Below are positions 18,724-63,760 of a stretch of DNA of 64,000 nucleotides, piece after piece. Position 1 is the stretch's first letter, and each line of letters starts with the position of its first letter. The notes beneath the pieces were generated by a model. That model made no database searches. It was given only the letters and a program-made list of their open reading frames with translations, and was not told where the DNA came from. Source of the DNA: Planosporangium mesophilum (GTDB lineage: Bacteria > Actinomycetota > Actinomycetes > Mycobacteriales > Micromonosporaceae); assembly GCF_016863255.1 (NCBI RefSeq), contig NZ_BOON01000054.1:1-64000 (forward strand), written 5' to 3'. The position numbers and the translations under genes were made by a program.

Positions 18724-18819
18724 TTCGGAAACCTTACTGACGCCGGCGGGTCATCCGCGGTCATGAAAACGCCACGACCCCGGCATACGTGGCTCAACGG
18801 GCGGCGCCGGGCTGCGGGT

Positions 18820-20001
18820 TCAGTGGACGGCGCCCGCCCAGGCGGCCGGCGCGGTCCGGATGTCGCGTACCACCGCACCCGCCGCCCCGATGACCGTCGC
18901 GGCCGGGCCCAGGGCGCAGGCGCGTACCTCGACCGGTGACCAGCGCGCGGTGAGCACCCGGCTGCGCAGCTCACGCTCCACATCCGAGTGCAGCCACCCG
19001 GCGAGGGCGGCGAAGGTGCCGCCCAGGACGACGGCGTCGACGTCGAGCAGGTTGACCACGCCGGCGGCGGCGATGCCCAGCGCCGTGCCCGCTGCGCGCA
19101 GAGCGTCGCGTACGGTCGGGTCGCCGGCCTCGGCCAGGTCGACCAGTCGCCCCAGCGCCACGGGCTCCCGGCCACCGTCCAGGCCCGCGGCCCGCATGAT
19201 CGCCTCCTGTCCGGCGTACCGCTCCAGGCAGCCGCGCGCACCGCACCGGCACACCGGGCCGTCCGGTGTGACCGTGACGTGGCCGATCTCGCCGCTCCAG
19301 CCGTGGGCGCCGCGGAACAGGGTGCCGTCGAGCACCAGGCCGGCGCCGACCCCGACCTCGCCGGAGATGTACAGGAAGCTGGCCGACGGCGCTGCGGCCA
19401 GTTCGCCGAGCGCGCCCAGGTTGGCCTCGTTGTCGACGCTGACCGGCAGGCCCGGCCAGTGCTCGGCCGCCGCCAGCGGGCCCGCCACGTCGACGTCGCG
19501 CCAGCCGAGGTTCGGCGCCACCCGTACCAGGCCGTCGCCGTCCACCAGGCCGGGTACGGCGAGCCGGGCGGCCGCCACGGTGAGGTCGACGCCGCCGACG
19601 GTCTCGGCGGCCAGTCGGGCCACGTCGGCCAGTACGGCGGAGGGCTGCCGGTCACGCTGGTCGACCCGGTGCACGACGTGGTGGCGGACCGCGCCGGTCA
19701 GGTCGACGACGGCCGCGGCCAGGTAGTCCACATTGATCTCCAGCCCCAGCCCGGCCGGCCCGCCGGCTGACAGGACCAGACCGGTGGCCGGGCGACCGGC
19801 TCCGGCGCGTGGTGCGGGCTCGACCTCGGCGACCAGGTCGGCGCGCAGCAGGTCCTCGACGAGGCTGGACACCGTGGCGCGGGTCAGGCCGGTCGCGGCC
19901 GCGACCTCGGCGCGCGAGACGGGCGCCGAGGTGGCCACGTGCCGCAGCACCAGGGCGAGGTTGTGCTGCCAGAGGCTGCGCTGGCGTACCGGTCCGTCCA
20001 C
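18820..20001 (-). CDS. ROK-family transcriptional regulator, probable xylose repressor
   Basis: A 393-residue XylR/NagC-type repressor. It has a helix-turn-helix at about 28-50 (VSRAEVAAATGLTRATVSSL) and a ROK domain with the zinc motif CRCGARGCLERY. The kinase catalytic Asp position reads DNEAN, again pointing to a sensor rather than an enzyme. It sits between xylF (same strand) and xylA (divergent), the classical place for the xylose repressor. The start is GTG 20001. Confidence 0.85.
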   Translation of the reverse strand: MDGPVRQRSLWQHNLALVLRHVATSAPVSRAEVAAATGLTRATVSSLVEDLLRADLVAEVEPAPRAGAGRPATGLVLSAGGPAGLGLEINVDYLAAAVVDLTGAVRHHVVHRVDQRDRQPSAVLADVARLAAETVGGVDLTVAAARLAVPGLVDGDGLVRVAPNLGWRDVDVAGPLAAAEHWPGLPVSVDNEANLGALGELAAAPSASFLYISGEVGVGAGLVLDGTLFRGAHGWSGEIGHVTVTPDGPVCRCGARGCLERYAGQEAIMRAAGLDGGREPVALGRLVDLAEAGDPTVRDALRAAGTALGIAAAGVVNLLDVDAVVLGGTFAALAGWLHSDVERELRSRVLTARWSPVEVRACALGPAATVIGAAGAVVRDIRTAPAAWAGAVH

Positions 20002-20006
20002 GGGCC

Positions 20007-20035
20007 TTGACGGTAGTGCCGCGCATCAATAAGTT
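20007..20035 (+). promoter_or_regulatory. Probable xylA promoter
   Basis: TTGACG (20007-20012) and TAAGTT (20030-20035) are separated by 17 bases, a good sigma-70-like pair for an actinomycete, 34 bases before the xylA ATG. The AT-rich word TTCAATGGATAAACAA just after it could bind the adjacent ROK repressor. The 67-base divergent gap also must hold the promoter of the repressor. Confidence 0.55.
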
Positions 20036-20068
20036 CAATGGATAAACAAAAGATCACAGGGAGACGCC

Positions 20069-21268
20069 ATGACCGCGAGCCCCAGCAGTGCCCGTCCAAG
20101 CAAGGAAGACAAGTTCTCGTTCGGCCTGTGGACCGTCGGTTGGCAGGCGCGGGACCCGTTCGGCGACGCGACCCGGCCGGCGCTGGACCCGGTCGAGTCG
20201 GTGCACCGGCTCGCCGAGCTCGGCGCGTACGGGCTCACCTTCCACGACGACGACCTGATCCCGTTCGGGAGCGACGACGCGGCGCGGGACAAGCAGATCG
20301 CCCGCTTCTCCGAGGCCCTCGCGGAGACCGGCCTGGTCGTCCCCATGGTCACCACCAACCTGTTCACCCACCCGGTCTTCAAGGACGGCGCGTTCACCAG
20401 CAACGACCGCGACATCCGCCGGTACGCGCTGCGCAAGGTCATGCGCAACCTCGACCTGGCCGCCCAGCTCGGCGCGGAGACGTACGTGTTCTGGGGCGGC
20501 CGGGAGGGCGCCGAGTCCGACGCCGCCAAGGACATCCGCGCCGCGCTCGACCGGTACCGCGAGGGGATCGACCTGCTCGCGCAGTACGTCGTCGACCGCG
20601 GGTACGGCATCCGGTTCGCGATCGAGCCCAAGCCCAACGAGCCGCGCGGCGACATCCTGCTGCCCACGGTCGGCCACGCGCTCGCCTTCATCTCGGAGCT
20701 GGAACACTCCGAGATGGTGGGCGTGAACCCGGAGGTCGGCCACGAGCAGATGGCCGGGCTGAACTTCGCCGCCGGCATCGCCCAGGCGCTGTGGCAGGGC
20801 AAGCTGTTCCACATCGACCTCAACGGGCAGCGCGGCATCAAGTTCGACCAGGACCTCGTCTTCGGCCACGGCGACCTGCTCAACGCGTTCTTCCTGGTCG
20901 ACCTGCTGGAGAACGGCCCCGACGGCGGCCCGGCGTACACCGGCCCCCGGCACTTCGACTACAAGCCCGCCCGTACCGAGGACATCACCGGCGTGTGGGC
21001 CTCGGCGGCCGCCAACATGCGCACGTACCTGCTGCTCAAGGAGCGCGCGGCGGCGTTCCGGGCCGATCCCGACGTGCAGGCCGCGCTGACCGCGAGCCGG
21101 GTGGGTGAGCTGTCGAAGCCCACCCTGGCAGAGGGGGAGTCCTACGCCGACCTGCTGGCCGACCGCAGCGCGTACGAGGAGTTCGACGCCGACGCCGCCG
21201 GGGCCCGCGGGCTCGGGGCGGTACACCTGACCCAACTCGCGGTGGAGCACCTACTAGGCGCCCGTTGA
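20069..21268 (+). CDS. xylA: Xylose isomerase
   Basis: A class I (actinomycete-type) xylose isomerase of 399 residues that converts D-xylose to D-xylulose. Catalytic and metal-site motifs are complete: the [11 protein letters not shown] histidine near 54, [54 protein letters not shown] and [11 protein letters not shown] at 20069 has AGGGAGA upstream. No xylulokinase gene is adjacent, so the next step must be encoded elsewhere. A strong hairpin follows. Confidence 0.97.
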
Positions 21269-23144: not shown

Positions 23145-23209
23145 ACGCATGTCTTGCATGACCTGTGCCTTGCCGGTGCTGACGAGCTGCGCGGCGGTCG
23201 GGTCGGTCG
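23145..23209 (-). pseudogene. 65-bp fragment of an ABC substrate-binding gene
   Basis: This stretch matches 24581-24645, inside the neighbouring transporter binding-protein gene, with only three mismatches in 65 bases, then diverges on both sides. Read on the minus strand it encodes the same segment, about DPTAAQLVSTGKAQVM, but with flanking frame disruption and no start or stop. It is therefore a duplicated fragment or the last remnant of a second copy. With the degenerate sequence around it, it marks the 22926-23463 gap as a recombination scar. Confidence 0.75.
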
Positions 23210-24187: not shown

Positions 24188-25243
24188 TCAGGCGGCCGGC
24201 GCCTTGCTCACGAACTGCGTCGTGTACGTCTTCGACAGGTCGATCGTGTCCTTCTTGCCCTGCACGTTCGGCGAGAACTGGCTGAGCACCTCGAGGACGT
24301 TCTTCGCGCCTTCGGGCTTCATCACGCCGTCGCCGTTGAACATGCCAATCGTGTCGTGGACCGCCTTGACGTACAGGTCCTTGCCGCCGGCGGCGTAGTC
24401 GGCCGGCATCTTCGCGGCGATCTCCTCGGCGCTGTGTCCCTTGATCCAGCGCAGCGTCTTGACGAACGCGTTCGCCAGCTTCTGGACCACCTGCGGATGA
24501 GCCTTCACCCAGGCGCAGTCCATGTACAGCGAGCTGGCCGGGTACAGGCCGCCGAGCGCCGCCTTCGTGCCCTCCTCGGTACGCATGTCGAGCATGACCT
24601 GCGCCTTGCCGGTGCTGACGAGCTGCGCGGCGGTCGGGTCGGTCGTCATGCCGGCGTCGATGCCGCCGTTGGTGATCGCGGCGATGAACGTCTGTCCGGC
24701 ACCGGCCTTGACGGTGGTGTAGTCGGACTTGCCCAGGCCGCCCTTGGTCGCCAGGTACTGGGTGAGGAAGTCGGTCGACGAGCCGGGGCTGGTGACGCCC
24801 AGCTTGCGGCCCTTGAAGTCGGCCGGGCTCTTGATCTCCTGCGCCTTGTCGGTGGCGACCATCTCGACCTCGCCGGGCACGTCGGCGAACTGGACGACGC
24901 TCTCGATGCACTTGCCCTTGGTCTGCAGGTCGATGGTGTGGTCGTAGAACCCGACGACGCCCTGGACGTCGCCGGAGATGAGGACGTTCTCGGCGATCGC
25001 GCCGGCCGGCTCGGTCAGCAGTTGGACGTCGAGGCCCTCGGCCTTGAAGTAGCCGAGCTGCTCGGTGAGCTTGGCCGGCAGGTAGATGACCTTGTCGATA
25101 CCGCCGACCATGATTTTGGCCTGGGTCGTGGTGTCGGCGGCGCCGCTCCTGTCGGCGCTGGGGGCCGTGCCGCGACACGCGGTGAGACCGACGGCGGTGG
25201 TCAGGGCGAGGGCGGCGGCCAGTGCGGTACGCGTTCTTCTCAT
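24188..25243 (-). CDS. NitT/TauT-family ABC substrate-binding lipoprotein
   Basis: An SsuA/ThiY-like (NMT1) binding protein of 351 residues. The signal peptide ends in the lipobox GLTAC with lipidated C23. The mature part has VIYLPAKLTEQLGYFKAEGLDV, then GRKLGVTSPGSSTDFLTQYL and the central AGMTTDPTAAQLVSTGKAQVM. Such proteins bind sulfonates, nitrate or bicarbonate, or pyrimidine precursors of thiamine. The ligand here is unknown. It is the last gene of a three-gene ATPase-permease-binding protein operon. Confidence 0.88.
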   Translation of the reverse strand: MRRTRTALAAALALTTAVGLTACRGTAPSADRSGAADTTTQAKIMVGGIDKVIYLPAKLTEQLGYFKAEGLDVQLLTEPAGAIAENVLISGDVQGVVGFYDHTIDLQTKGKCIESVVQFADVPGEVEMVATDKAQEIKSPADFKGRKLGVTSPGSSTDFLTQYLATKGGLGKSDYTTVKAGAGQTFIAAITNGGIDAGMTTDPTAAQLVSTGKAQVMLDMRTEEGTKAALGGLYPASSLYMDCAWVKAHPQVVQKLANAFVKTLRWIKGHSAEEIAAKMPADYAAGGKDLYVKAVHDTIGMFNGDGVMKPEGAKNVLEVLSQFSPNVQGKKDTIDLSKTYTTQFVSKAPAA

Positions 25244-52312: not shown

Positions 52313-53299
52313 ATGGCCGGCATGACGAGTGCGACGGGTACCCGCATCGGCTGGGCCGACCTGCCGTGCCAGGTCCGCGCCGGTGTCGAGGCGATCGTCG
52401 GGGACACGGTGGTGAGAGCCGTTTCCCAGCCCGGGGGCTTCTCCCCGGGTACCGCCGACCGGATCCGGACGGCCGCCGGTCGGCGGGCGTTCGTCAAGGC
52501 GGTCAGTCCGACGCAGAATGAGGTCAGCACCGACCTGCACCGGCGGGAGGCGCATGTGACCGCGGCACTGCCGGAGTACGCGCCGACGCCCCGCCTGCTG
52601 GGCTGCTACGACGACGGCTACTGGGTGGCGCTGGTCCTGCAGGACGTCGAGGGGCGGCACCCCCGTACCCCGTGGCGACCCGACGAGCTGGAGGCCGTCC
52701 TCACCACGCTGGGCGACCTGGCGGTGACGCTGACCCCTTCCCCGCTACCGGGTGTCCCGTCGGCAGTCGACCACCTGTCCGGGAACTTCGCGGGCTGGCG
52801 GCGCGTCGCGGCCGACCCCCCGCCCGACCTCGACCCGTGGACGAGCGCGCACCTGCCGGTACTGTGCGCGTTGGCTGATCAGGCGACCGCGTCGCTCGCC
52901 GGCGACACGCTGGTACACAACGACATCCGCGCCGACAACCTGCTGCTCCGGCCGGACGGGGCCGCGGTCGTGGTCGACTGGCCGTGGGCGTGCGTCGGGC
53001 CGGCATGGCTGGACACCCTCCTGCTCATGGTCAACGTCCGGCTCTTCGGCGGTCACGACACCGACGCCCTCCTCACCGATACCCTTGTCTCCAGGCGCGC
53101 GGCGATGACCGAGCTGAAGCCGGACGACCTCACCGCCGTACTCGCGGGGCTCGCCGGGTTCTTCCTCGACTGCGCCCGGCAGCCACCGCCGCCCGGCATC
53201 CCGACCCTTCGAGCGTTCCAACGGGCGCAGGCCGACGCCGTACTGCCCTGGGTGCGCGACCGCCTCACCACCCCTGGTTCGCGGCGGGCCCGCGCCTGA
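52313..53299 (+). CDS. Aminoglycoside phosphotransferase-fold kinase
   Basis: A 328-residue APH/choline-kinase-family protein. The catalytic loop is LVHNDIRADNLLLRPDG near 203-219 and the metal-binding Asp lies in VVVDWPWAC. The N-lobe has FVKAVSP with the ATP-binding lysine. Members phosphorylate antibiotics, homoserine, sugars or macrolides; most actinomycete copies are uncharacterised, so resistance should not be assumed. ATG 52313 has no obvious ribosome site and ATG 52322 is equally possible. Confidence 0.85.
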   Translation: MAGMTSATGTRIGWADLPCQVRAGVEAIVGDTVVRAVSQPGGFSPGTADRIRTAAGRRAFVKAVSPTQNEVSTDLHRREAHVTAALPEYAPTPRLLGCYDDGYWVALVLQDVEGRHPRTPWRPDELEAVLTTLGDLAVTLTPSPLPGVPSAVDHLSGNFAGWRRVAADPPPDLDPWTSAHLPVLCALADQATASLAGDTLVHNDIRADNLLLRPDGAAVVVDWPWACVGPAWLDTLLLMVNVRLFGGHDTDALLTDTLVSRRAAMTELKPDDLTAVLAGLAGFFLDCARQPPPPGIPTLRAFQRAQADAVLPWVRDRLTTPGSRRARA

Positions 53300-53372
53300 C
53301 GGGTTGATAGTGACGGGCGCCGGTGCCGAGCGTGCCGGGGTGGTGATCTCATGGGCGGTTGCGGCGCCGACG

Positions 53373-54176
53373 TCAGCGCTCGACGGGGAGCGGGTCGTGG
53401 TACGACCCGGACGGTCCCGCGTACTGCGTACCGTCGGGGTACGGCCAGGCGTTGGGCGCGCAGCCGTGCAGGCCGAGGGTCTGCTGCTGCATGACGGGTG
53501 CTGGTTTCCCGGGTCCCGGGCACAGTTGGTGCCCGTGGCCGAGGCGGTGCCCGACCTCGTGGTTGACCATGTACTGCCGGTATGCGTCCAGCGGTGCGCC
53601 GTAGCCGGGCACGCCCGTCGCCCATCGGGCCACATTGAGCACCACGGCGTTGCCGCGTCGGCATGAGGTGTACCGGTCCGGCCCGTCCTGGCACAGCAGG
53701 TCGCGGGTGGCGGGGGTGGCGAGGTGGACGGTGAAGTCGGCGGGACCGCCCGCGCCCACCCGCTGGAGCCGCCATCCGCCGCCGGCGGTCCAGCTGCGCG
53801 GGTCGGCCAACGCCGTGACGACCTCGCCGGCGAACGCGTTCGGGTCAACGTCGATGTCACGCTCGACCACCACCCGGAACCGCAACAGGCGCCCGCTGCG
53901 CCCGAGTACGGGGCTGTCGCCTGAGGCGGTGATCCACTGTCGTGAGCCGGCCTGGGGATAGCTGATCCGGGTGGAGGCCAGGTGTCTCGCCTGCGTCACG
54001 CCTGAGTCGGTGACCGGTGCCGGCGAGGTGCTCGGCGTAGCTGACCCGCCGGGGGCGCCGACCGCCGACGCGTTCCCGGGGTGTGGGCCGCAGCCGGCCA
54101 GGGAGCCCGCCAGTACCAGCGCCAGAGGTACGGTCGACCAACTCCGATGCCGGTATCGCTGCGTGATCCGTGGCAT
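53373..54176 (-). CDS. DUF3152 zinc-metalloprotease-like lipoprotein
   Basis: A 267-residue lipoprotein. The lipobox GSLAGC gives lipidated C29, and a Ser/Thr/Pro linker follows. The DUF3152 domain carries the metzincin-like motif HEVGHRLGHGH (H206, E207, H210, G213, H216), followed by CPGPGKPAPVMQQQT, which could supply the Met-turn. Family members are widespread actinobacterial proteins of unknown substrate. Convergent with the kinase gene, 73 bases apart. Confidence 0.88.
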   Translation of the reverse strand: MPRITQRYRHRSWSTVPLALVLAGSLAGCGPHPGNASAVGAPGGSATPSTSPAPVTDSGVTQARHLASTRISYPQAGSRQWITASGDSPVLGRSGRLLRFRVVVERDIDVDPNAFAGEVVTALADPRSWTAGGGWRLQRVGAGGPADFTVHLATPATRDLLCQDGPDRYTSCRRGNAVVLNVARWATGVPGYGAPLDAYRQYMVNHEVGHRLGHGHQLCPGPGKPAPVMQQQTLGLHGCAPNAWPYPDGTQYAGPSGSYHDPLPVER

Positions 54177-54344
54177 ACCGTCTCCTCGGCCTCGCCGTCG
54201 TGCGTCCGGGGTGGAGCGTTCCGTCGGACCGCCCGGGTGATGCGGTCCTGTCTGCTCTTTTCGGCTGGAACGTCACTTTCACAAGGCGTCGTCGGGTGTC
54301 TTGGATCACACAACACGTCTCGGCTCGGGCCGCAGACTCTGACG

Positions 54345-55556
54345 TCAGTGGTCGGCGTGCGGTGCGAAGCCGGCCAGTGCCTCGCGGTGCGGTACGTGGG
54401 CCAGGTGAAGCTCGTCCAGGCCCAGCCTGCGGTACGTCGTGTGCAGGGCCGCCACCACCGCGCCGAACGCTCCGGCCAGGTCGCCCAGTTCGGTGCTCTG
54501 CACCGTGGCGGTGGTCGGCACGATCTCGCGCAGCCGCTGATTGATTCGTTCGAGGCCGGGTTCGAGCCCGCGCGAGATCCCGCCGCCGAGGATGATCACG
54601 TCTGGCTCGTAGGCGACCACGGCGGCCGTGAGGATGATCAGCAGGGCCTGTTCGATCTGCTGCTTCACCGGTGCGAGGCGGGGATCGGACGAGTGGAACA
54701 CGTCGGCCGGGTTGTCGAACGGCAGTCGCAGCTCACGGGCGCGCGCGAGGATGCCGGGGCCACTGACGAGCTGTTCCAGGGAGGTACCCAGCGGCCCGGC
54801 GGGCAGGTGGCCGAACTCTCCCACCAGACCGGTACGGCCGTGGAAGAGTCGCCGGTCGAGCGCGACGCCGGCGCCGAGGCCGGCCCCGACGGTGAACATG
54901 ACCGCGGTCTGCGCGTCGCGCGCCGCGCCGAATCGCAGCTCGCCGAGCAGGGCGTAGTTGGAGTCGTTGTCGATGTCGACGCCCATCCCGAGCCGCCGCT
55001 CCACCATCCGCAGGAAGTCCGCCTGCTCGACCTGGCGCAGGTTCGGTGCGTTGGACACGGAGCGGTCGTCCTGCCCGACCGCACCGGGTAGCCCGACCGC
55101 CACCGCGTCGAGGAGCGGCCGCTGGTCGCCGACGGTGTCGAGGATGAGGTCGGCCAGCCACCGGCCGAGCTCCTCGGCGTCGCATCCGGTCGGCGTCGGT
55201 ACCGTCGTGGTCATCAACGGCTTGGCGGCGAGGTCGGCCACGACGATCCGGACGTTGGAGCCGCCGAGGTCGACTCCACACACGACGGTACGTTCGGTCT
55301 CGATCGTGACCGGGGTGGCGCGCCGGCCCCGGCCGGACCCGGGTGCTCCGTTGGTCTCGCTGAGCAGCCCTTCCGCGAGCAACTGCTCGACGATGCGCGA
55401 AACCGTGGCGGGGGACAGGCCGGTCTCCCGGCCGAGGACGGTACGGGTGGCCGAGCCCTGGGCCAGTACGTGGGCCAGCACGGCAGACCGGTTGGCACGG
55501 CGGGGCACCTCAGTACGGCGGGGCACCTCAGCACCGCGGGGTACCTCGGCGTCCAC
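54345..55556 (-). CDS. ROK-family repressor without zinc motif
   Basis: A 403-residue ROK regulator with an N-terminal helix-turn-helix (TRTVLGRETGLSPATVSRIV) and a ROK domain (GVDLGGSNVRIVVADL; DNDSNYALLGE). GEFGHLPAGPLG keeps the histidine of the zinc site, but the CxCGxxGC cysteines are absent, so zinc may not be bound. The start is probably GTG 55556 after GGGGAGG; GTG 55565 is too close to it. The N-terminus is a triplicated AEVPRR-like unit. Divergent from the adjacent ABC/PTE operon, which it probably represses. Confidence 0.82.
   Translation of the reverse strand: MDAEVPRGAEVPRRTEVPRRANRSAVLAHVLAQGSATRTVLGRETGLSPATVSRIVEQLLAEGLLSETNGAPGSGRGRRATPVTIETERTVVCGVDLGGSNVRIVVADLAAKPLMTTTVPTPTGCDAEELGRWLADLILDTVGDQRPLLDAVAVGLPGAVGQDDRSVSNAPNLRQVEQADFLRMVERRLGMGVDIDNDSNYALLGELRFGAARDAQTAVMFTVGAGLGAGVALDRRLFHGRTGLVGEFGHLPAGPLGTSLEQLVSGPGILARARELRLPFDNPADVFHSSDPRLAPVKQQIEQALLIILTAAVVAYEPDVIILGGGISRGLEPGLERINQRLREIVPTTATVQSTELGDLAGAFGAVVAALHTTYRRLGLDELHLAHVPHREALAGFAPHADH
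55501..55554. repeat. 18-bp tandem repeat at the ROK gene start
   Basis: Two near-identical units, CGGGGCACCTCAGTACGG and CGGGGCACCTCAGCACCG, and a third diverged unit encode the proline/arginine/glutamate-rich head of the ROK protein. It is in-frame (six residues per unit) and precedes the DNA-binding domain. Confidence 0.75.
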
Positions 55557-55579
55557 GTAACCCACCCCTCCCCAATTTC

Positions 55580-55592
55580 TTTCGGCTCGAAA
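55580..55592. promoter_or_regulatory. Candidate ROK operator A
   Basis: The dyad TTTCG-GCT-CGAAA lies 24 bases upstream of the ROK start. It shares arms with the second site at 55741-55757, with a 3-base rather than 7-base centre. It is consistent with autoregulation. Confidence 0.45.
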
Positions 55593-55712
55593 ATGCTAGG
55601 GGAGTGGTTTGGTGGGGTCAATGGGTAGAAGTATCGATGTTATGCCCCCTAATGCCTGATTTGTAGTAAATACCAACTCTGGTAGGGCCGCGTTTTCCCG
55701 CCGTGGCGCCTC

Positions 55713-55757
55713 TTGACGAGGGCAGATGCGAAGCTAATACTTTCGGCCTGAGCGAAA
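55713..55757 (+). promoter_or_regulatory. Promoter and operator B of the ABC/PTE operon
   Basis: TTGACG (55713-55718) and TAATAC (55735-55740), 16 bases apart, make the best promoter match in the window. The dyad TTTCG-N7-CGAAA (55741-55757) begins at the next base, where a bound repressor would block the start of transcription. The divergent ROK gene is the natural candidate regulator. The rest of the 55566-55923 gap holds no gene and is relatively AT-rich. Confidence 0.6.
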
Positions 55758-55923
55758 TTGGGAAACCGGTTCCGAGCTCGAGCCGCGGCCGGCGGGTGCG
55801 TCCCGCCCGCGTTCGCAGACGGGGTCGGGCGTCGGCACCCGCCTCATCGGGGTCGGTCCGCCGCGCGCGGTACGGCCGGCCACACCGAATTTCATGTGAC
55901 ACATGGTTCGAGAGGGAACTGGT

Positions 55924-57039
55924 ATGAACTTCAGGCCTAGACGGGCAGCCGCTTTAGGTGCCCTGTGCGCGCTGGCGTTGCTCGTCAGCGCTTGCGGCGG
56001 GAACAGCGACAAGGGTGGGGGCGCTCCGAGCGCCAACCGCACCCAGCCGAGCCTCACGTTCGCGGGCCCCAACGGGGAGAGCCCGACGGCGGCCGACCAG
56101 CTGAACCTGACGCCCGAGGAGATCGGCAAGATCAAGGCCGGCACGTACACGGCCGCCTTCGTCTGGCACGAGGACTCGGCGCTGGTGAAGGCCGTCGAGG
56201 CGGGCGCGCGCAAGCAGTTCGAGAAGCTCGGCATCAAGGTCCTGGCGACCACGAGCGCCGACTTCGACGCCGCCAAGCAGGCGAACAACGTGCAGACCGT
56301 CCTGGCGCAGAACCCCAGCGTCATCGTCACGATCGCGGTCGACCCCACCTCCGCCGCCGCCGCGTTCAAGCCGGCCGTGGACAAGGGCACCAAGCTCGTC
56401 GTCATGACGACCCCGCCGAAGGGCTACAAGGCCGGGCAGCAGATCGTCGGCATCGTCACCATGGACCTGACCGCCATGGGCAAGCTGAACGCCGAGATGC
56501 TGGGCAAGGCGATGGGCGGCAAGGGCAAGGTCGGCTACCTGTACCACGACGCCGACTTCTGGTTCACCAACCAGCGGGACAAGGCGTTCAAGAACTGGCT
56601 GGGCTACCTGTACCCGGACATCAAGATCGTTGCGGAGCAGGGCTTCTCGGACCCCGCCCGTACCGAGGACATCGCCAACGCGATGCTGACCCAGAACCCG
56701 GACCTCAACGGCGTCTACGTCGCCTGGGCCACCGCCGCGGACGGCGTGCTCGCCGCGCTGCGCCAGCAGGGCCGCAAGGACGTCAAGGTCGTGACCAACG
56801 ACCTCGAGGCCAACCAGGCCGCCGACCTGGTCAAGGGCGGCAACATGGCCGGCATGGTCAACAACGGCTCGGTCCGGGTCGGCGAGGGCCTCGCCACCAT
56901 GGCCGGGTACGGGCTGATCGGCAAGCAGGCGCCGGCGATGGTGGTCGGTACGCCGAAGGCCGCGACCAAGGACACCGTGGCCGACGCGTGGCGCGACGAC
57001 TACAACCAGGACCCGCCGGCGAGCGTGCTCGGCAAGTAA
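55924..57039 (+). CDS. Sugar-type ABC substrate-binding lipoprotein
   Basis: A 371-residue periplasmic-binding-protein type 1 (Peripla_BP_4) lipoprotein. The signal peptide ends in the lipobox LVSAC, with C24. The mature body has GTYTAAFVWHEDSALVKAVEAGARKQF and VIVTIAVDPTSAAAAFKPAVD, like the ribose/rhizopine/autoinducer-2 cluster. The ligand is unknown but is probably a sugar, polyol or lactone. ATG 55924 follows GAGAGGGAA; earlier in-frame codons are rejected. It is the first gene of a six-gene operon, followed by a strong palindrome. Confidence 0.9.
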   Translation: MNFRPRRAAALGALCALALLVSACGGNSDKGGGAPSANRTQPSLTFAGPNGESPTAADQLNLTPEEIGKIKAGTYTAAFVWHEDSALVKAVEAGARKQFEKLGIKVLATTSADFDAAKQANNVQTVLAQNPSVIVTIAVDPTSAAAAFKPAVDKGTKLVVMTTPPKGYKAGQQIVGIVTMDLTAMGKLNAEMLGKAMGGKGKVGYLYHDADFWFTNQRDKAFKNWLGYLYPDIKIVAEQGFSDPARTEDIANAMLTQNPDLNGVYVAWATAADGVLAALRQQGRKDVKVVTNDLEANQAADLVKGGNMAGMVNNGSVRVGEGLATMAGYGLIGKQAPAMVVGTPKAATKDTVADAWRDDYNQDPPASVLGK

Positions 57040-57046
57040 GGCGTGA

Positions 57047-57078
57047 CCCGGGGCCCCGCGGATCCGCGGGGCCCCGGG
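57047..57078. terminator. Perfect 32-bp palindrome after the binding-protein gene
   Basis: Two 16-base arms starting CCCGGGGCCCCGCGGA are exact complements with no spacer, 7 bases after the stop. As in xylFGH, it probably sets a high ratio of binding protein to the downstream genes by partial termination or 3'-end protection. Confidence 0.7.
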
Positions 57079-57158
57079 ACCCCGGCCGGCAACCTGCGGC
57101 GGACACGGCCAGCAGGAAGCGCGGCCAGCAGGAAGCACACGGGTGCGAGGAGAGCAGG

Positions 57159-58151
57159 ATGGGGTACGTTCAGACAGTCCGAGGGCCGGTCGCCCCGGAG
57201 TCCCTGGGCCGGGTGATGCCGCACGAGCACCTGGGCTCGCTCGTGCCGGGACCGTGGCTGAGTGGCGGCGCCGGCGACCACCGCGCCGACCTGGCGGTCG
57301 ACGCCGTGGCGGGCCTGCCGGGCCTCGGCTTCGGTACCGTCGTCGACCTCTCGCCGTACGAGGTGGTCGGGCACGATGTGACCCTGCTGCGCGACGTGGC
57401 CGAGCGTACCGGCCTGAACGTCGTCGCCGGTTCCTCGATCTACCTGGAGCCGTACTCGCCGCGCTGGGCCCTCGAGGCAGGCGTGGACGAGATGCGCGAG
57501 CGCTTCGTCGCGGACGCGACGGTCGGCATCGGGGACACCGGCATCAAAGCCGGTATCTACGGTGAACAGGCCACCGGCCTGAACGAGATCACCCCCCACG
57601 AGGAGAAGTGCCTGCGCGCGGCCGCCCGCGCGCACCGCGTCACCGGGCTGTCGATCAACACCCACACCACCCACGGCACGATGGCCCTCGAGCAGGTCGA
57701 GATCCTCCGCGAGGAGAAGGTCGACCTGGACCGCGTCGTCATCGGCCACATGGACATCCACCCCGACCCGGCGTACCTGCGCGCGGTTCTCAAGACCGGG
57801 GTGAGCATCGCCTTCGACACCATCGGCAAGCAGTTCTGGGACTTCGTCCTCGCGCCGCCGCCGGAGGACCCGCCGGAGGGCGAGTTCGGCAAGCGCGCCT
57901 ACTACCGGCCGGACCGGTCGCGCCTTTCGAACCTCGCCGCGCTGGTACGCGAGGGCTACGCCGACCGGATCCTGCTGGCGCAGGACATGACCGGTGCGGA
58001 GGCCTACCTCAACCCGCGTACGCACGGCCGGCTCGGTTACTCGTACCTCGGGCAGGAGATCGTGCCCGCGCTGGGCCGGCTCGGCGTGTCCGACGACGAC
58101 CTGGAGCAGATGCTGGTCCGAAACCCGGCACGTCTGTTGACCATCGGCTGA
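57159..58151 (+). CDS. Phosphotriesterase-family metal hydrolase (Php/lactonase-like)
   Basis: A 330-residue amidohydrolase-superfamily protein. The binuclear metal site appears complete: H22 and H24 in MPHEHL, K130 in GIKAGIYGE (candidate carbamylated lysine), H169 in INTHTTHG, H197 in IGHMDIHPD and D276 in LAQDMTGAE. Family members include phosphotriesterases, lactonases and sugar-lactone-phosphate hydrolases. The operon context favours a sugar-derived lactone or ester. ATG 57159 after GAGGAGAG. Its stop overlaps the next start (TGATG). Confidence 0.9.
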   Translation: MGYVQTVRGPVAPESLGRVMPHEHLGSLVPGPWLSGGAGDHRADLAVDAVAGLPGLGFGTVVDLSPYEVVGHDVTLLRDVAERTGLNVVAGSSIYLEPYSPRWALEAGVDEMRERFVADATVGIGDTGIKAGIYGEQATGLNEITPHEEKCLRAAARAHRVTGLSINTHTTHGTMALEQVEILREEKVDLDRVVIGHMDIHPDPAYLRAVLKTGVSIAFDTIGKQFWDFVLAPPPEDPPEGEFGKRAYYRPDRSRLSNLAALVREGYADRILLAQDMTGAEAYLNPRTHGRLGYSYLGQEIVPALGRLGVSDDDLEQMLVRNPARLLTIG

Positions 58152-59158
58152 TGACCGCGTCTGACGTCTCACCGCTTCATCGCTCATCCATGGCGGAAAA
58201 TCGCTACGTCGCCGGCGTCGACCTCGGCGGTACGAAGGTGCGGGCCGCGCTCGCCGACCGAGGCGGTCACATCGTGGCCGAGGACGTGGTGGGTACCGAC
58301 CCGCGCGGCGGAACGGCGGTCGCCGAGCAGATCGCGGCGCTGCTCCGCTCGTTGGCCGAAGGTGCCGGCGTGGCCTGGACCGCCGTCGGCGCCACGGCGG
58401 TGGGCAGCCCGGGCGCGCCCAACCCCGAGACCGGCGCGATCGACCTGTCCCCGAACATCTCCAGCTTCGACTCGCTGGACCTCCAGCACGAGCTGGCGCG
58501 GCGGCTGGGCCACCCGGTCGTCCTCGACAACGACGTGAACATGGCGGCGTTGGGCGAGCAGCGGACGGGCGGTGGACGCGGGTACCGGGACTTCGTTTTC
58601 GTGGCCGTCGGTACCGGGATCGGCATGGGGATCGTCGTCAACGGCTCCCTCTGCCGGGGCGCGCGGGGCGCGGCCGGCGAGATCTCGTACCTGCCGTTGG
58701 GCACCGATCCGTTCGACCCGGCAAACCAGGTCAGAGGCGCCCTCGAAGAGGCGGTCGCCGGCGCGACGATCGCCCGGCGGTACGAGGAGGCGACCGGGGA
58801 GTGCGTGAGCGTACCGGTAGTCTTCGAGCGCGCCGGGGCCGGTGACGAACACGCGCTCGCCGCCATCGACGACGAGGCGAAGTTCATCGCGCTGGCCGTG
58901 GCCGCCGTCGGAGCCGTCCTCGACCCGGAGGCCGTCGTCCTCGGCGGCGGCATCGGCTCCCGGGCCGAGCTGCTCGAACCGGTACGGCGCTGGCTCGGCC
59001 GCCTCGGCGCGCACGCGCCGATCGTCAGGACAAGTCAGCTGGGCCACCGCGCCGCGTTGATCGGTGCCATCGCGGCCGCTCGTCACGAGATGACGCGCGG
59101 GGCGGAGCACCGAATCGAGCCCGAGCACCGAATCATTGAAGGGATCACACATGAGTGA
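58151..59158 (+). CDS. ROK-family sugar kinase
   Basis: A 335-residue ROK protein without a helix-turn-helix, so it is probably a kinase. The ATP motif is AGVDLGGTKVRAAL near 21-34. The catalytic Asp candidate lies in VVLDNDVNMAALGE, and the phosphate loop is VAVGTGIGMGIVV. The usual ExGH...CxCGxxGC zinc segment reads GEISYLPLG with no cysteines, so the sugar pocket is altered. A start at MAENRY (58190) is possible. The tail has a duplicated EHRIEP-EHRI unit, and its end overlaps the permease gene by 8 bases. Confidence 0.85.
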   Translation: MTASDVSPLHRSSMAENRYVAGVDLGGTKVRAALADRGGHIVAEDVVGTDPRGGTAVAEQIAALLRSLAEGAGVAWTAVGATAVGSPGAPNPETGAIDLSPNISSFDSLDLQHELARRLGHPVVLDNDVNMAALGEQRTGGGRGYRDFVFVAVGTGIGMGIVVNGSLCRGARGAAGEISYLPLGTDPFDPANQVRGALEEAVAGATIARRYEEATGECVSVPVVFERAGAGDEHALAAIDDEAKFIALAVAAVGAVLDPEAVVLGGGIGSRAELLEPVRRWLGRLGAHAPIVRTSQLGHRAALIGAIAAARHEMTRGAEHRIEPEHRIIEGITHE

Positions 59159-60128
59159 GGCGGGGACTGCCGCACCGGCAATCAGCCGTCCGCGGTGGCG
59201 CGCCATCGACTGGCGCGAGTACGTGGTGTACATCGGGTTCGTCCTGGTCTTCTTGTTCTTCGCCGTCTTCCTCGGCGAGACGTTCCTGAATCCGACCAAC
59301 CTCTCCAACATCGTCATCCAGACGGCCCCGATCACGGTCATGGCGGTCGGGTTGGTGTTCGTGCTGTCGACCGGCGAGATCGACCTGTCGATCGGTTCGG
59401 TGGTGGCGGTGTCCGCGCTGACCGGCGCGGTGGCGCTGCGCGAGACCGACAGCGCGCTGGTCGGCGTGCTCGCCGGGCTGGCGGTCGGCGCCGTGGTCGG
59501 CCTGGTGAACGGCGTCTTCGTCACCCTGGTGCGGCTGCCGTCCTTCCTGGTGACCCTGGCGACCATGGGCGCGGTGGCCGGCGTGGCCCGGGAGATCAGC
59601 AACCTGCAGTCGGTCCCCGTCGACAACGAGACCTTCCTCGGCCTGTTCGGCTCGGGTGAGCTGTTCGGCGTGCCGGGCCTGATCATCTGGTCGGTGCTGG
59701 CGATCGCGGTCGGCTACGTCCTGCTGAACAAGACCCGGTACGGCGCCCACGTACTCGCGATCGGTGACAACATCGGCGCGGCGCGGGTCAGCGGCATCAA
59801 GACCGCTCGCGTCAAGATCATGGTGCTGATGGGCAGCGCGATGTGCGCCTCGCTGGCCGGGCTGCTGTACGCGGGCCGCCTGCACGGCGCGCGGTACACC
59901 CTGGGCGAAGCCGACCTGATGACGGTCATCGCCGCGGTCATCGTCGGCGGCACCAGCCTCTTCGGAGGCAAGGGCACGGTGGTGGGCGCGCTGATGGGCA
60001 GCCTGCTGATGGGCATGCTCAACAACGGCCTGATCCTGGCCCACCTCTCCGTATCGCAGCAGATGATCGCCCGAGGGCTGATCATCCTGGTCGCGGTGTC
60101 GCTCTCATTGCGCGAGAAGCGCAGCTGA
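59151..60128 (+). CDS. Ribose/sugar-type ABC permease
   Basis: A 325-residue BPD_transp_2 permease with about eight to ten transmembrane segments. LSTGEIDLSIGSVVAVSAL near 80-98 and IVGGTSLFGGKGTVVGALMGSLLMG are the RbsC-family signatures, and GAHVLAIGDNIGAARVSGI is the cytoplasmic loop. It works with the binding protein and the ATPase in the same operon. ATG 59151 follows GAAGGGA. Confidence 0.92.
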   Translation: MSEAGTAAPAISRPRWRAIDWREYVVYIGFVLVFLFFAVFLGETFLNPTNLSNIVIQTAPITVMAVGLVFVLSTGEIDLSIGSVVAVSALTGAVALRETDSALVGVLAGLAVGAVVGLVNGVFVTLVRLPSFLVTLATMGAVAGVAREISNLQSVPVDNETFLGLFGSGELFGVPGLIIWSVLAIAVGYVLLNKTRYGAHVLAIGDNIGAARVSGIKTARVKIMVLMGSAMCASLAGLLYAGRLHGARYTLGEADLMTVIAAVIVGGTSLFGGKGTVVGALMGSLLMGMLNNGLILAHLSVSQQMIARGLIILVAVSLSLREKRS

Positions 60129-60141
60129 TCTAGGAGAACGC

Positions 60142-61365
60142 ATGTTTCTGGACCTGCTCCGGCGCCGCAACCCGGCCTTCCTGCGGGCCGCCGCCCAGCT
60201 GCACCACACCGGCGAGCTGCCGGCCAACACGTACGCCCTCGACCTCGACACGGTGAGCGCGAACGCCACGGCGATCAAGCGGGAGGCCGACCGCCTCGGG
60301 CTGACCCCGTTCGCCATGACCAAGCAGATCGGCCGGAACCCGGACCTCTCCCGGGCCGTCCGCGCCGCCGGTATCACCGAAGCGGTCGGCGTCGACCTCC
60401 AGTGCGCGCTCGCCGCCCGCGCGGGTGGCCTCGCTACCGGTCACATCGGCCACCTGGTCCAGATCCCGCGCCACGAGGCGGCGACCGCCGCCGCGCTGAA
60501 CCCGCGGTACTGGACGGTCTTCAACGACGCCAAGGCCGGCGAGGCCGCGGCCGCCAGCGCGGCGCTCGGCCGCGACCAGGCGCTGCTGGCGCGCATCGTC
60601 GCGCCCGGCGACACGTTCTACCGCGGTCACGAGGGCGGGTTCGACGCCGCCGACGTCGTGGCGGTGGCCGACCGCCTGGACGACCTCGCGGGCGCGCACT
60701 TCGCCGGGATCACCAGCTTCCCGGCCCTGCTGTTCGACAAGGAGACGGGCAAGGTACGCCCGACGCCCAACCTCGGGACGCTCCAGGACGCGGCGGCCCG
60801 CCTGCGCGCCGCCGGCCGGGACCACGTCGAGCTCAACGCCCCGGGTACCACCTCGGTGGCGACCCTGCAGATCCTGGCCGACGCCGGCGCGACGCAGGTC
60901 GAGCCGGGGCACGGCCTGACCGGTACCACGCCGTGGCACGCGGTCGAGGACCTGGTCGAGGAGCCGGCCGTGCTGTACGTCAGCGAGGTGTCCCACCTGC
61001 ACGGCAACCACGCGTACGTGTTCGGCGGTGGCCTGTACGTGGATCCGGTGCTGGGGCTTGGCCGTACCAGGGCGCTGATCGTGCGCGGCGGTGACCTCGA
61101 CGGTGCCCGCCTCGTCGAGGTGGAGATGCCGGCGCCCGAGGCCATCGACTACTACGCCATGGCCGACGTCAGCGACGCGGCCGGGGTGGAGCCCGGCGAC
61201 ACCGTGATCTTCGGGTTCCGGCCGCAGGCGTTCGTCACCAGGGCGCTGACCGCCGGTGTCACCGGGGTCCGGTCGGGCACGCCCGCGGTCACCGGCGTCT
61301 ACGCGGCGGACGGTTCGGTACCGATCGGCCTCGACGGCCACGCCGTGGAATCCGTCGCGAGCTGA
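60142..61365 (+). CDS. YhfX-like PLP-dependent (alanine racemase-fold) protein
   Basis: A 407-residue fold-type III PLP enzyme resembling YhfX of the uncharacterised E. coli yhf operon. The barrel begins YALDLDTVSANATAIKREADR. The probable PLP lysine is K61 in AMTKQIGRNP, in place of the racemase KANAYGHG. EPGHGLTGTTPWHA and YVFGGGLYVDP are shared features. The reaction is unknown; amino acid racemisation or decarboxylation-type chemistry is possible. E. coli yhf likewise includes a phosphotriesterase homologue (php), so the pairing is conserved. Confidence 0.82.
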   Translation: MFLDLLRRRNPAFLRAAAQLHHTGELPANTYALDLDTVSANATAIKREADRLGLTPFAMTKQIGRNPDLSRAVRAAGITEAVGVDLQCALAARAGGLATGHIGHLVQIPRHEAATAAALNPRYWTVFNDAKAGEAAAASAALGRDQALLARIVAPGDTFYRGHEGGFDAADVVAVADRLDDLAGAHFAGITSFPALLFDKETGKVRPTPNLGTLQDAAARLRAAGRDHVELNAPGTTSVATLQILADAGATQVEPGHGLTGTTPWHAVEDLVEEPAVLYVSEVSHLHGNHAYVFGGGLYVDPVLGLGRTRALIVRGGDLDGARLVEVEMPAPEAIDYYAMADVSDAAGVEPGDTVIFGFRPQAFVTRALTAGVTGVRSGTPAVTGVYAADGSVPIGLDGHAVESVAS

Positions 61366-61376
61366 GGGAGTAGATC

Positions 61377-62156
61377 GTGAGCAGTGAGCAGAGCTTGATC
61401 CCGGACGCCGGCGTGGTGGACCGGAGCGTACCCGCGCTCCAGCTGACCAACATCCGCAAGCAGTTCGGCGGCGTCGTCGCGATCGAGCGCTTCGACCTCG
61501 ACGTACAGGCCGGTGAGATCGTCGCCCTCGTCGGCGACAACGGCGCAGGCAAGTCGACGCTGGTCAAGATGGTGTCCGGGGTGTACCAGCCGACGGAGGG
61601 CGAGATCCGGCTCCAGGGCCGGCCCGCCTCCTTCCGCGACGCCTCGGACGCGCGCCGCCAGGGCGTGGAGGTCGTGTACCAGGACCTCGCCCTGGTCGAC
61701 TCGCAGCCCGTGTACATGAACATGTTCCTCGGCCGGGAGCTGACCAAGGGGCCGTTGCGCCTGCTCGACCGGCGCCGGATGGCCAGGGAGACGCAGGAGC
61801 TGGTGGACCGTCTCGACGTGCGCATCCCGAGCGCCAAGGCGACGATCCGGGAGCTGTCCGGCGGCCAGCGGCAGGCGGTGGCGATCTGCCGTGCCACGCA
61901 CTGGGCGAGCAGCCTGGTACTGATGGACGAGCCGACCGCCGCCCTCGGTGTGGCCGAGACCGCGAAGGTGGAGGAGCTGATCATGCGCCTGCGCGAACGC
62001 GGCGCCGGCGTACTGGTCGTCAGCCACAACCTCGACCAGGTCTTCCGGATCGCCGACCGGGTGGCGGTGCTGCGCCGGGGCAGGCAGGTCGGCGTCCGGA
62101 GCATCGCGGCGACCAACCGCAACGAAGTGGTCTCGATGATCACCGGCCTGTCCTGA
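61377..62156 (+). CDS. Sugar-type ABC transporter ATP-binding protein
   Basis: A 259-residue half-size RbsA/XylG-like ATPase with Walker A GDNGAGKSTLVKM, Q-loop YQDLALVD, signature LSGGQRQAVAICRA, Walker B LVLMDEPTAALGV and H-loop VVSHNLDQVF. It is closely similar to XylG at 16561. It is unusual in lying at the end of the operon, separated from its permease by the PLP gene. The start is GTG 61377 after GAGGGAG. Confidence 0.92.
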   Translation: MSSEQSLIPDAGVVDRSVPALQLTNIRKQFGGVVAIERFDLDVQAGEIVALVGDNGAGKSTLVKMVSGVYQPTEGEIRLQGRPASFRDASDARRQGVEVVYQDLALVDSQPVYMNMFLGRELTKGPLRLLDRRRMARETQELVDRLDVRIPSAKATIRELSGGQRQAVAICRATHWASSLVLMDEPTAALGVAETAKVEELIMRLRERGAGVLVVSHNLDQVFRIADRVAVLRRGRQVGVRSIAATNRNEVVSMITGLS

Positions 62157-62233
62157 CCTCAGGACGGGTTAACCGCGACTCATTCACGGGTATGACTTCC
62201 CAGGGCCTTCGTCTCCTGGGGAGGTGACACCGG

Positions 62234-62878
62234 ATGGCCGCTGGTGCGGAGCCTTTCGATGCCCAGCCCTTCGATGCCGGGTCGTTCAATCCGGACGACC
62301 CGGCGGTGCGGCGGCGGATCCGGCAGCGGCGCCGGCGGCGCGTGTGGCTGGCGGTGGCGGTGGTCGTCCTCGGCGCCGTGGGCGGGTTCGTGTTCGGGCT
62401 CGTCTCCGGACCGCCGCACCGGCAGGCCACAGAGCCGCCGCAGTGGGCCGGCACCCTCGGGACCTCCCTGTTGTTGCTGGGCCTCGCCTTTGAGGCAGTC
62501 GGACTCGTCTACGGCTTCCGCAGCGGACAGATCCAGCGTGGCTGGAAATCTCCGGTACGGGCGTTTCCGTTCCGGCAGCGGCGGCGGATGGTGAAGCAGG
62601 TCCGCGGGAAGCTGCCGGTGGCGGCCGAGGAGCTACCGCTGCTGCGCCTGGTGGCGGAGGGCCTGCGCGGGCAGCGCTGGCTGATTTTCCTCATAGCGGC
62701 GCTGATGGTGATAATGGTCGGGAGCGCGCTTTCCCGGTATTCGCCGGGTTGGTTCATCCTCGCTGCGGTGTACGTCGTCGCCATGTCCGCCGGCATAGTC
62801 TCCTACCTACGCGTCGCTCGGGCGGCGGAGCGCTTCCTGCGCGAACACGGAGAGAATGGAACGGACTCAGTGGCCTGA
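62234..62878 (+). CDS. Hypothetical membrane protein
   Basis: A 214-residue protein with an acidic/Phe-rich N-terminus (EPFDAQPFDAGSFNPDD), a basic stretch RRRIRQRRRRR and about four transmembrane helices (near 38-57, 72-92, 150-165 and 172-190). No family is recognised. GAGGTG lies upstream of ATG 62234. Its end overlaps the convergent regulator gene by 12 bases. Confidence 0.75.
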   Translation: MAAGAEPFDAQPFDAGSFNPDDPAVRRRIRQRRRRRVWLAVAVVVLGAVGGFVFGLVSGPPHRQATEPPQWAGTLGTSLLLLGLAFEAVGLVYGFRSGQIQRGWKSPVRAFPFRQRRRMVKQVRGKLPVAAEELPLLRLVAEGLRGQRWLIFLIAALMVIMVGSALSRYSPGWFILAAVYVVAMSAGIVSYLRVARAAERFLREHGENGTDSVA

Positions 62879-63760
62879 CCGGCCGAGCTCGTCGAGGATG
62901 CGGGTGACGATCTCGATCGTACGGTCCGGCGGCTCGGCCTCGATGCTCAGGTTCTCCATGACGGCGGCGTAGTGATCCACGTCGTCGCGCTTGTCCAGGT
63001 ACAGCGCGCTGGTGAGCTGTTCGATGTAGACGACGTCGGGCAGGTCCCGCTCGGGGAAGCGCAGGATGCTGAAGGCTCCGCCGGCGGCGGCGTGCCCTCC
63101 CGCGTCGAACGGAATGACCTGGAGCCGGATGTTGGGTAACTTGGCGGCGTCGATGAGCGCTTCGAGTTGGGCCCTCATCACCTCGTGACCGCCGATCGGC
63201 CGGCGCAGTACCGCCTCGTCCACCACCGCCCACAGCCGGGGCGGATCCTGGCGGCCGAGCAGTTGCTGGCGGGCCATCCGCAGGTTCACCCGCCGTTCGA
63301 TCTCGGCCGAGTCGGCGCCGCGATGGCCCAGCAGGACGACGGCGCGAGCGTACTCTTTGGTCTGCAACAGGCCGGGGATGAACTGAACCTCGTAGGCGCG
63401 GATCAGCGTCGCGGCGGCCTCGAGTCCGAGGTAGGCCTGGAACCAGCTCGGCAGGACGTCGCTGTAGCGGTGCCACCAGCCAGGCGTGTTGGACTGGCGG
63501 GCGAGTGCCAGCAGGCGCTCACGCTCCTGGCCGTCGTCGATCCCGTACAGGCTGAGCAGGTCGGCGACGTCGCGTACCTTGAAGCCGACCCGCCCCAGCT
63601 CCATCCGGCTGATCTTGGATTCCGACCCCCGGATCTCCCATCCGGCATCCTCCCGGCTGACGCCTTTGGCCTCCCGCAGCCTTCGCAGCTGGGCACCGAG
63701 CAGCATGCGCAGCACGGTCGGGCCGCTGGATGACCCGCTCTCCGATCCAGGCCTCGCCAC
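62867..63760 (-). CDS. XRE-family regulator with DUF5753
   Basis: A 297-residue regulator. The N-terminal helix-turn-helix (LRRLREAKGVSREDAGWEIRGSESKISRMELG near 22-54) is followed by a DUF5753 domain (YEVQFIPGLLQTKEYARAVV; VDEAVLRRPIGG; LPNIRLQVIPFDAGGHAA; VYIEQLTSALYLD). Such proteins are hallmark actinomycete regulators of development and antibiotic production, often paired with a DUF397 gene, which is not seen here. GTG 63760 follows GGAGGG at good spacing; the longer frame to 63871 lacks a site. Confidence 0.9.
   Translation of the reverse strand: MARPGSESGSSSGPTVLRMLLGAQLRRLREAKGVSREDAGWEIRGSESKISRMELGRVGFKVRDVADLLSLYGIDDGQERERLLALARQSNTPGWWHRYSDVLPSWFQAYLGLEAAATLIRAYEVQFIPGLLQTKEYARAVVLLGHRGADSAEIERRVNLRMARQQLLGRQDPPRLWAVVDEAVLRRPIGGHEVMRAQLEALIDAAKLPNIRLQVIPFDAGGHAAAGGAFSILRFPERDLPDVVYIEQLTSALYLDKRDDVDHYAAVMENLSIEAEPPDRTIEIVTRILDELGRSGH

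Follow-up and report, generated by a model that had tools for sequence, protein, structure and literature searches.

A conserved ROK-regulated operon of Planosporangium mesophilum with phosphotriesterase-family and YhfX genes: a possible catabolic route for an N-acylated amino sugar

The yhf operon of Escherichia coli encodes a phosphotriesterase (PTE)-family hydrolase, Php, and a pyridoxal phosphate (PLP) protein, YhfX. Its gene order is yhfZ-Y-X-W-php-yhfU-T-S, in agreement with an annotated Cetobacterium operon. Structures have been solved for Php (1bf6) and YhfX (4kbx, released 2014). No functional paper on YhfX was found, as judged by titles and the starts of abstracts, and none on yhfS, yhfT, yhfU, yhfW or yhfZ, as judged from the listing. 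Some PTE-family proteins hydrolyse sugar lactones or phosphosugar lactones. According to the passages available, mammalian PTER hydrolyses N-acetyltaurine and N-acetyl-beta-alanine and has a glutamate, E169, at its metal (PMC11374699, PMC13311154), and the ong pathway handles GlcNAc1A, from oxidised chitin (PMC9537276, PMC12017989). Here we analyse a locus that joins PTE and YhfX genes to an importer and ROK-family proteins, located in a 64,000-nucleotide stretch of Planosporangium mesophilum, the host (the window; contig C54 of a 6.6 Mb genome).

The content, order and direction of seven genes were confirmed from open reading frames, start sites and profile searches. The genes are as follows:

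54345-55565, minus strand: ROK-family repressor with a winged helix-turn-helix (HTH) and a ROK domain, sugar-site motif GEFGH, full kinase signature absent (profiles, motif alignment)
55903-57039, plus strand: CUT2-type solute-binding lipoprotein (solute-binding protein, SBP), Peripla_BP_4 (PF13407, 7.5e-41)
57159-58151, plus strand: PTE-family hydrolase, predicted N-deacylase, with H22, H24, E136, H169, H197 and D276 (PF02126, 1.1e-57; alignment)
58151-59158, plus strand: ROK sugar kinase with DLGGTK, LDNDVN, GTGIG and the sugar-site motif GEISYLPLGTDPFD (start at 58190 also possible)
59151-60128, plus strand: CUT2 permease (PF02653, 2e-38; AraH and ribose-permease profiles)
60142-61365, plus strand: YhfX-family fold-type III PLP enzyme, Schiff-base lysine K61 (PF21279, 1.4e-22; PF01168, 1.5e-12)
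61377-62156, plus strand: CUT2 ATP-binding cassette (ABC) ATPase with a single nucleotide-binding domain (NBD) (PF00005, 8.3e-31)

An earlier interpretation made from the letters alone (the sequence-only reading) had set the unit at 55566-62156, which takes in the operon genes but leaves out the ROK repressor. For the kinase, the ATG at 58151, which overlaps the PTE stop, is a more likely start than 58190, because the identical PTE/kinase overlap is called in loci L030, L031 and L032. The kinase stop is overlapped by the permease start. The top NCBIfam profiles for the ATPase are N-terminal halves of CUT2 ATPases.

In our reading, this locus is an operon under a ROK repressor that serves to take up and break down an N-acylated amino sugar, though not N-acetylglucosamine (GlcNAc); we give this reading a probability of about 0.5. 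In the proposed scheme, the SBP, permease and ATPase would import the acylated amino sugar, and the PTE protein would hydrolyse its N-acyl amide, a job that M20 deacylases would do in related gene sets. YhfX would then use its PLP to work on the C2 amine so released and give glucosamine, in the simplest case as a C2 epimerase converting mannosamine to glucosamine. The ROK kinase would form glucosamine-6-phosphate, and a SIS-type (NagB-II-like) or NagB deaminase, which many relatives encode within the operon and the host elsewhere in its genome, would produce fructose-6-phosphate and ammonia. The general scheme carries most of our confidence and the C2-epimerase role less.

The gene set, called the cassette below, is conserved as a unit across genomes. 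YhfX (PF21279) is over the cut-off in nine of the 300 family genomes, counting the host, and there is one more weak match. The window PTE at E ≤1e-70 picks out the identical nine genomes; this co-occurrence is not chance. Within the phylum, YhfX is over the cut-off in five of 396 genomes, again including the host, and the PTE at E 1e-70 finds the host alone. The order of the seven genes is common to all nine cassette genomes of the family (G022 and G073 belong to the host's genus, and the G073 contig ends inside the ATPase gene), with the ROK repressor divergent in every one. This supports the sequence-only reading in that the genes predicted to import, hydrolyse and phosphorylate the compound and to carry out a PLP step form one conserved unit, which has a dedicated ROK repressor. 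A set of genes not kept together would have refuted that reading, and the genome comparison did not show this. A wider scan covered 84,980 species genomes, and the best 80 of 352 YhfX loci, a set biased towards the window's clade, were taken from it. Three of these (L070, L080 and L116) were dropped since our home-made gene caller gave no YhfX there, leaving 77; L056-L059, L061 and L076 repeat genomes G022, G073, G008, G279 and G208. Permease, YhfX and ATPase genes are contiguous in 66 of the 77 loci.

The hydrolase in these 77 loci is a PTE in 30, an M20 deacylase in 34, and neither in the run in 13, several of which are on short contigs. In Actinomycetota, a PTE is paired with a ROK kinase in 30 loci, and the runs of 20 of these also include a SIS gene; three other loci combine M20 with a kinase. 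In Pseudomonadota, 30 loci have M20 without a separate kinase, eight with SIS, three with NagB and 19 with neither, and one Chloroflexota locus has M20. Overall, SIS genes are present in 36 of 77 runs, and NagB in three others, all without SIS. This exchange of PTE for M20, together with the frequent SIS or NagB gene, argues for a route in which an amide is hydrolysed and the sugar is phosphorylated and deaminated on the way to fructose-6-phosphate, and not for lactone opening. The single M20 protein tested is ArgE/DapE-like, and 35 M20 sequences keep H83, D85, D121, E155, E156, D184 and H386 (L097 numbering), which we take to be the usual M20 residue set. The M20 form of the cassette is found on annotated plasmids of Nitratireductor, Ruegeria TM1040, Aminobacter and Rhizobium. 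In the Rhizobium sp. RCAM05350 locus (L052), the M20, second SBP, YhfX and ATPase genes are fragmented or shortened, reflecting either a decaying cassette or sequencing errors.

All three cassette NagB proteins pass the curated TIGR00502 cut-off (263.7-285.2 against 236.9). The three cassette SIS proteins tested match the NagB-II profile at 2.4e-51 to 1.3e-72, and GlmS profiles match them as well, so that NagB-II and the isomerase domain of GlmS are their nearest kin. When one SIS protein was compared with solved structures, 8eol (named glucosamine-6-phosphate deaminase) matched at 7.9e-38, behind the unassigned phosphosugar isomerase 3fj1 at 4.8e-45; in the rows shown, SQSG and a C-terminal Lys of the SIS proteins align with host GlmS. 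By profile and alignment the cassette SIS proteins thus resemble NagB-II, and we call them NagB-II-like because all those tested score far below the NagB-II cut-off. No canonical NagB is over the cut-off in the host, which has on another contig a SIS homologue 42% identical to the cassette type over residues 1-339 of 340.

Other combinations occur with YhfX. Locus L027 (G022:C78, 3377-10619) has an Amidohydro_3 amidohydrolase, a ribulose-phosphate-3-epimerase (RPE)-like gene, a GlmS-like SIS, a ROK protein and two tandem YhfX genes. In L122, a PfkB kinase adjoins a very weak polysaccharide-deacetylase match. SIS, YhfX, a YhfW-like phosphopentomutase and an RPE-like epimerase stand in a row in L029 (G073:C43, 7565-11884), a link between SIS enzymes and the yhf kind of operon as well.

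The window PTE belongs to its family without difficulty (PF02126, 196 bits against a cut-off of 22.4). In an alignment of 35 PTE rows that includes the window, Php and a second host PTE from locus L043, H22 and H24 are present in all 33 rows that reach the site (two do not), and H169, H197 and D276 in all 35. The sequence-only reading had listed these five residues together with K130; the five hold, but column 130 is variable, with K in nine of 35 rows and otherwise R (20), H, V, Q, C or T. The conserved position is E136, kept in at least 95% of the rows. It aligns with E125 of E. coli Php, which we take to bridge the metals, and with the second Lys of PLL-type hydrolases in the alignment with 3f4c, presumably the carbamylated bridging Lys; the bridging Lys of the PTE/PLL lactonase subgroup is therefore absent. 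As aligned, this is a Glu-bridged metal site like those of Php and PTER, whereas the sequence-only reading had assumed a Lys-bridged one. The Glu-bridged site shared with PTER and the M20 swap favour amide hydrolysis over lactonase activity, and by this analogy the window PTE is predicted to be an N-acyl amino sugar deacylase. It is not an orthologue of E. coli Php by the NF007373 equivalog profile (158.1 bits against 486). The second host PTE, 62% identical to that of the window, lies in an operon with an SBP5/Dpp-type ABC importer (L043; G000:C28, 7709-15251); an adjoining ROK protein has most kinase motifs, and no YhfX was called there.

The YhfX protein of the window is a clear family member (PF21279, 80.5 bits against 27) with the PLP lysine in MTKQ; this residue, K61, is invariant in alignments of 22 and of 27 YhfX sequences. 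It matches 4KBX at 2.8e-68, and its predicted model (pLDDT 91) superposes on 4KBX with a TM of 0.89. The next folds are D-threonine aldolases, hydroxyaspartate dehydratase and alanine racemase, all at a TM of about 0.65. A C-terminal H-x-C/H-x-D metal motif marks the metal-dependent D-threonine aldolases and D-serine dehydratases; no conserved HxC/HxD motif was found among the His columns of the 27 YhfX sequences, which thus do not carry the mark of these enzymes. Since PLP chemistry requires a free amine, YhfX should act after deacylation. Its task, if glucosamine-6-phosphate is the end point, must be to convert a C2 epimer or a C3-substituted form into glucosamine. That it is a C2 epimerase acting on mannosamine is a tentative first guess, more probably wrong than right.

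ROK kinases typically, though not universally, have an ExGH sugar motif and a CxCGxxGC zinc motif. The stand-alone ROK protein of the operon has the kinase signature, with DLGGTK, the catalytic Asp in NDxN (LDNDVN) and GTGxG (GTGIG). Its sugar-site motif GEISYLPLGTDPFD is GEISY in the window and GEIGY, GEIGF and the like in relatives, and so departs from ExGH; CxCGxxGC was not found in any of 39 kinase-type ROK rows or in the listed regulators. Where a separate kinase is present, the ROK regulator lacks the full kinase signature (31 of 31 loci), and where none is present, the regulator keeps the kinase motifs (26 of 30 loci). Among the four failing loci, the gene call is incomplete in L093, L126 fails only because of the search pattern used, the kinase of L117 is on the opposite strand, and the first motif deviates in L134. 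This split tracks phylum, so it is a correlation and not a count of many independent events. A quick tree of 102 ROK domains, which gave long-branch warnings, groups 29 proteobacterial regulators in a single clade (SH-aLRT 99). This clade, the actinobacterial kinase group and three extra rows make up one side of a branch with support 100; the kinase group contains the HTH-bearing rows K_L076 and K_L133. On our reading of these sequences, repressor and kinase may be one protein in Alphaproteobacteria. The trade-off predicts a bifunctional ROK protein; a narrow literature search found nothing on a bifunctional ROK repressor/kinase. It is unlikely that three proposals all hold together, namely that YhfX is a C2 epimerase, that the Glu-bridged PTE is an amino-sugar N-deacylase, and that the alphaproteobacterial HTH-ROK protein is both repressor and kinase, with the two roles split in Actinomycetota.

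Several results weigh against the amino-sugar scheme or its details. What was observed is the gene set, its conservation, the swaps and the catalytic residues; every reaction, and the order of deacylation, the YhfX step and phosphorylation, is what we infer from them. Neither SIS nor NagB is in the run of 19 of the 30 proteobacterial M20 cassettes. The SIS proteins of L062, L063 and L097 score 183.9, 175 and 244.9 bits against the NagB-II (NF046059) equivalog cut-off of 430, GlmS profiles score near NagB-II and come top for L062, and L062, one of the three tested, also gives a weak match to the fructoselysine deglycase (FrlB) profile (3.2e-13). The deacetylase match in L122 reaches 20.5 bits against a Pfam cut-off of 23.1, with no NCBIfam match. 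By profile, D-threonine aldolase (4.4e-7) is a closer match to YhfX than alanine racemase is (0.027), and the roughly equal nearness of the aldolase and racemase folds means that kinship does not favour epimerisation. The absence of ExGH implies that the sugar of the kinase may not be plain glucosamine. Comparison of the SBP with its solved relatives, which are mixed sugar-binding proteins, gave no ligand hint. Finally, NanE gives a mixed picture: where present, it would make a cassette for N-acetylmannosamine redundant; it is over the cut-off in three of the nine cassette genomes and in six of 18 other cassette genomes, in a survey without the L102 genome in which the only two non-cassette genomes, G003 and G053, split, with NanE in one of the two, and it has no match in the host.

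Two substrates were considered and set aside. GlcNAc is unlikely, as NagA is over the cut-off in all nine cassette genomes and the cassette is not needed for GlcNAc. GlcNAc1A, the ong substrate, was rejected, as SIS and NagB would have no role.

Four other explanations were weighed against that of an N-acylated amino sugar. The first is an N-aminoacyl-glucosamine conjugate, whose amide the hydrolase would split, after which YhfX would racemise the amino acid and the kinase and deaminase would process the glucosamine. The alanine-racemase-like fold of YhfX and the ArgE/DapE-like M20 enzymes speak for it, as does locus L049 of an Embleya plasmid (6898-12270), where an amino acid permease of the APC family and a ROK protein flank YhfX and a ROK regulator is also present. 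However, no hydrolase was identified between regulator and ROK protein in L049, though a conjugate would need one; we know of no abundant nutrient of this type, and consider the idea distinctly unlikely.

It is similarly improbable that the substrate is an amino sugar substituted at 3-O, N-acetylmuramic acid for example. PTE or M20 would deacetylate it, and YhfX would remove its lactyl group by PLP beta-elimination at C3 and rehydration to give glucosamine. This would suit the deacylase types found, since M20 (ArgE/DapE-like), PTER-type PTE and Amidohydro_3 enzymes have relatives with carboxylate or sulfonate substrates, and one of the fold neighbours of YhfX is D-threo-3-hydroxyaspartate dehydratase, whose substrate is a 2-amino-3-hydroxy compound. 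We lowered its standing for the known etherase MurQ, which is present at E 1e-87 or better in seven of the nine cassette genomes (not G073 or G279; five are listed over the curated cut-off). No D-lactate dehydrogenase was noticed by eye in 18 neighbourhoods, an inspection made with no profile search and with one FAD-oxidase-like protein, upstream in L120, left aside. In the flanks of the clusters and neighbourhoods examined, no lactate or cell-wall genes recurred; L072 has two LytR_cpsA_psr genes.

In a glycated-amine (Amadori/Heyns) route, the ROK kinase would phosphorylate the adduct, the SIS protein would be an FrlB/FraB-like deglycase, PTE or M20 would trim an amide and YhfX would racemise the amino acid. 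SIS proteins include deglycases, L062 has its FrlB match, and frl and yhf genes adjoin in E. coli (L053, an unannotated record). Against this, NagB replaces SIS in three cassettes, and the FrlB match, seen for one of three SIS proteins, is far weaker than those to GlmS and NagB-II, so that this route too is improbable. The sequence-only reading had proposed a sugar lactone or an amino-sugar-related compound; its amino-sugar branch survives in the scheme above, but the idea that a sugar lactone is phosphorylated and then ring-opened by a PTE-family lactonase is very improbable. In its favour are the lactone hydrolysis known for some PTE-family proteins and a phospho-furanose lactonase profile that matches the window PTE at 5.5e-23. 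Against it, this match gives 81.6 bits for a cut-off of 630, below the Php-type score, and the M20 replacement, the frequent deaminase-type gene and the Glu-bridged site also speak against a lactonase.

The regulatory features of the locus are as follows:

55580-55592, no strand: predicted operator 2, TTTCGGCTCGAAA, at the repressor promoter, placed as the mirror of operator 1
55593-55621, minus strand: repressor promoter, sigma-70-like, TTGACC/TAGCAT (consensus match only)
55713-55741, plus strand: operon promoter, sigma-70-like, TTGACG-17-AATACT (consensus match and conservation)
55741-55757, no strand: predicted operator 1, TTTCGGCCTGAGCGAAA, immediately 3' of the operon -10 box
57047-57078, plus strand: strong RNA hairpin, 14 bp, between the SBP and PTE genes

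Two sigma-70-like promoters were found in 53200-62900 against 0.3 expected, one on each side of the intergenic region, and all eight aligned intergenic regions have an unchanged CTTGACG and TAATACT in the operon promoter. TTTCGGCCTGAGCGAAA has one match in the window against 0.00 expected (none in 100 shuffles), and TTTCGGCTCGAAA one against 0.03; from sequence, both are predicted ROK operators. The CTGA core of the operator 1 region is present in all eight aligned species and TTTC in seven. Counting against these calls, the exact operator 1 palindrome is found in the window alone among the eight (the right half is CGAAA in two, CAAAA in two and CGGAAA in four), and exact TTTCGGCTCGAAA in two of eight, the window and L026, the others diverging. 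The hairpin segment 57034-57090 folds at -42.3 kcal/mol (z -4.1); a hairpin after the binding-protein gene is a common arrangement. Intrinsic terminators were not in excess (two found against a shuffled mean of 2.5).

Elsewhere in the window, 14071-21268 holds a xylose-type cluster with a CUT2 transporter, a xylose-isomerase-like TIM-barrel gene and two regulators, ROK-like by eye, which share a 121-nt stretch at 70%. A 65-nt repeat, 95% identical, occurs at 23145-23209 and 24581-24645. Its second copy is inside an NMT1-like binding-protein gene and its first in a stretch without a called gene, perhaps a duplicated-gene remnant.

For Php-type hydrolases and YhfX proteins alike, the cassette points to a role that can be tested and to a concrete substrate class. 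It narrows the question to a short list of reactions, that of a kinase and those of a hydrolase and a deaminase, each of which comes in two interchangeable forms. Among known systems, the E. coli yhf operon has a Glu-bridged PTE (Php) and YhfX in one run (L053), as the sequence-only reading had pointed out, and E. coli YhfX is 37% identical to that of the window. Unlike the cassette, it has the phosphopentomutase YhfW, the PLP enzyme YhfS and YhfT/YhfU, and its run is without an ABC importer, ROK kinase, SIS gene or ROK regulator. A nearly complete operon of the E. coli type (Z, U, T, Php, S, X, W) lies in an actinomycete at L038 (G470:C1, 8777-16966). PTER, from the descriptions available and not from sequence comparison, is like the window PTE in being PTE-related by name, in its Glu at the metal (E169) and in the predicted amide hydrolysis, but its substrate is not a sugar. 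The ong pathway, as far as the passages on it go, likewise removes the acyl group ahead of phosphorylation, uses for this an amino-acid-type deacylase that has been taken over for an amino sugar, and has a PLP enzyme as the next step; it differs in its D-aminoacylase-like OngB, its deaminase OngC leading to KDG, its kinase KdgK and its SSS transporter, and those passages name no SIS or NagB. The nag pathway for GlcNAc has in common with the cassette a ROK regulator, a ROK kinase, an amide hydrolase, a GlcN6P-deaminase-type enzyme and a probable fructose-6-phosphate end point. The cassette departs from it in having a PTE or M20 hydrolase and no identified NagA (which is elsewhere in all nine genomes), and in adding the YhfX PLP enzyme and a CUT2 importer with one NBD. 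Judged by our literature search, the cassette is most likely a conserved and apparently unstudied variant of amino-sugar catabolic operons, and not a lactone pathway.

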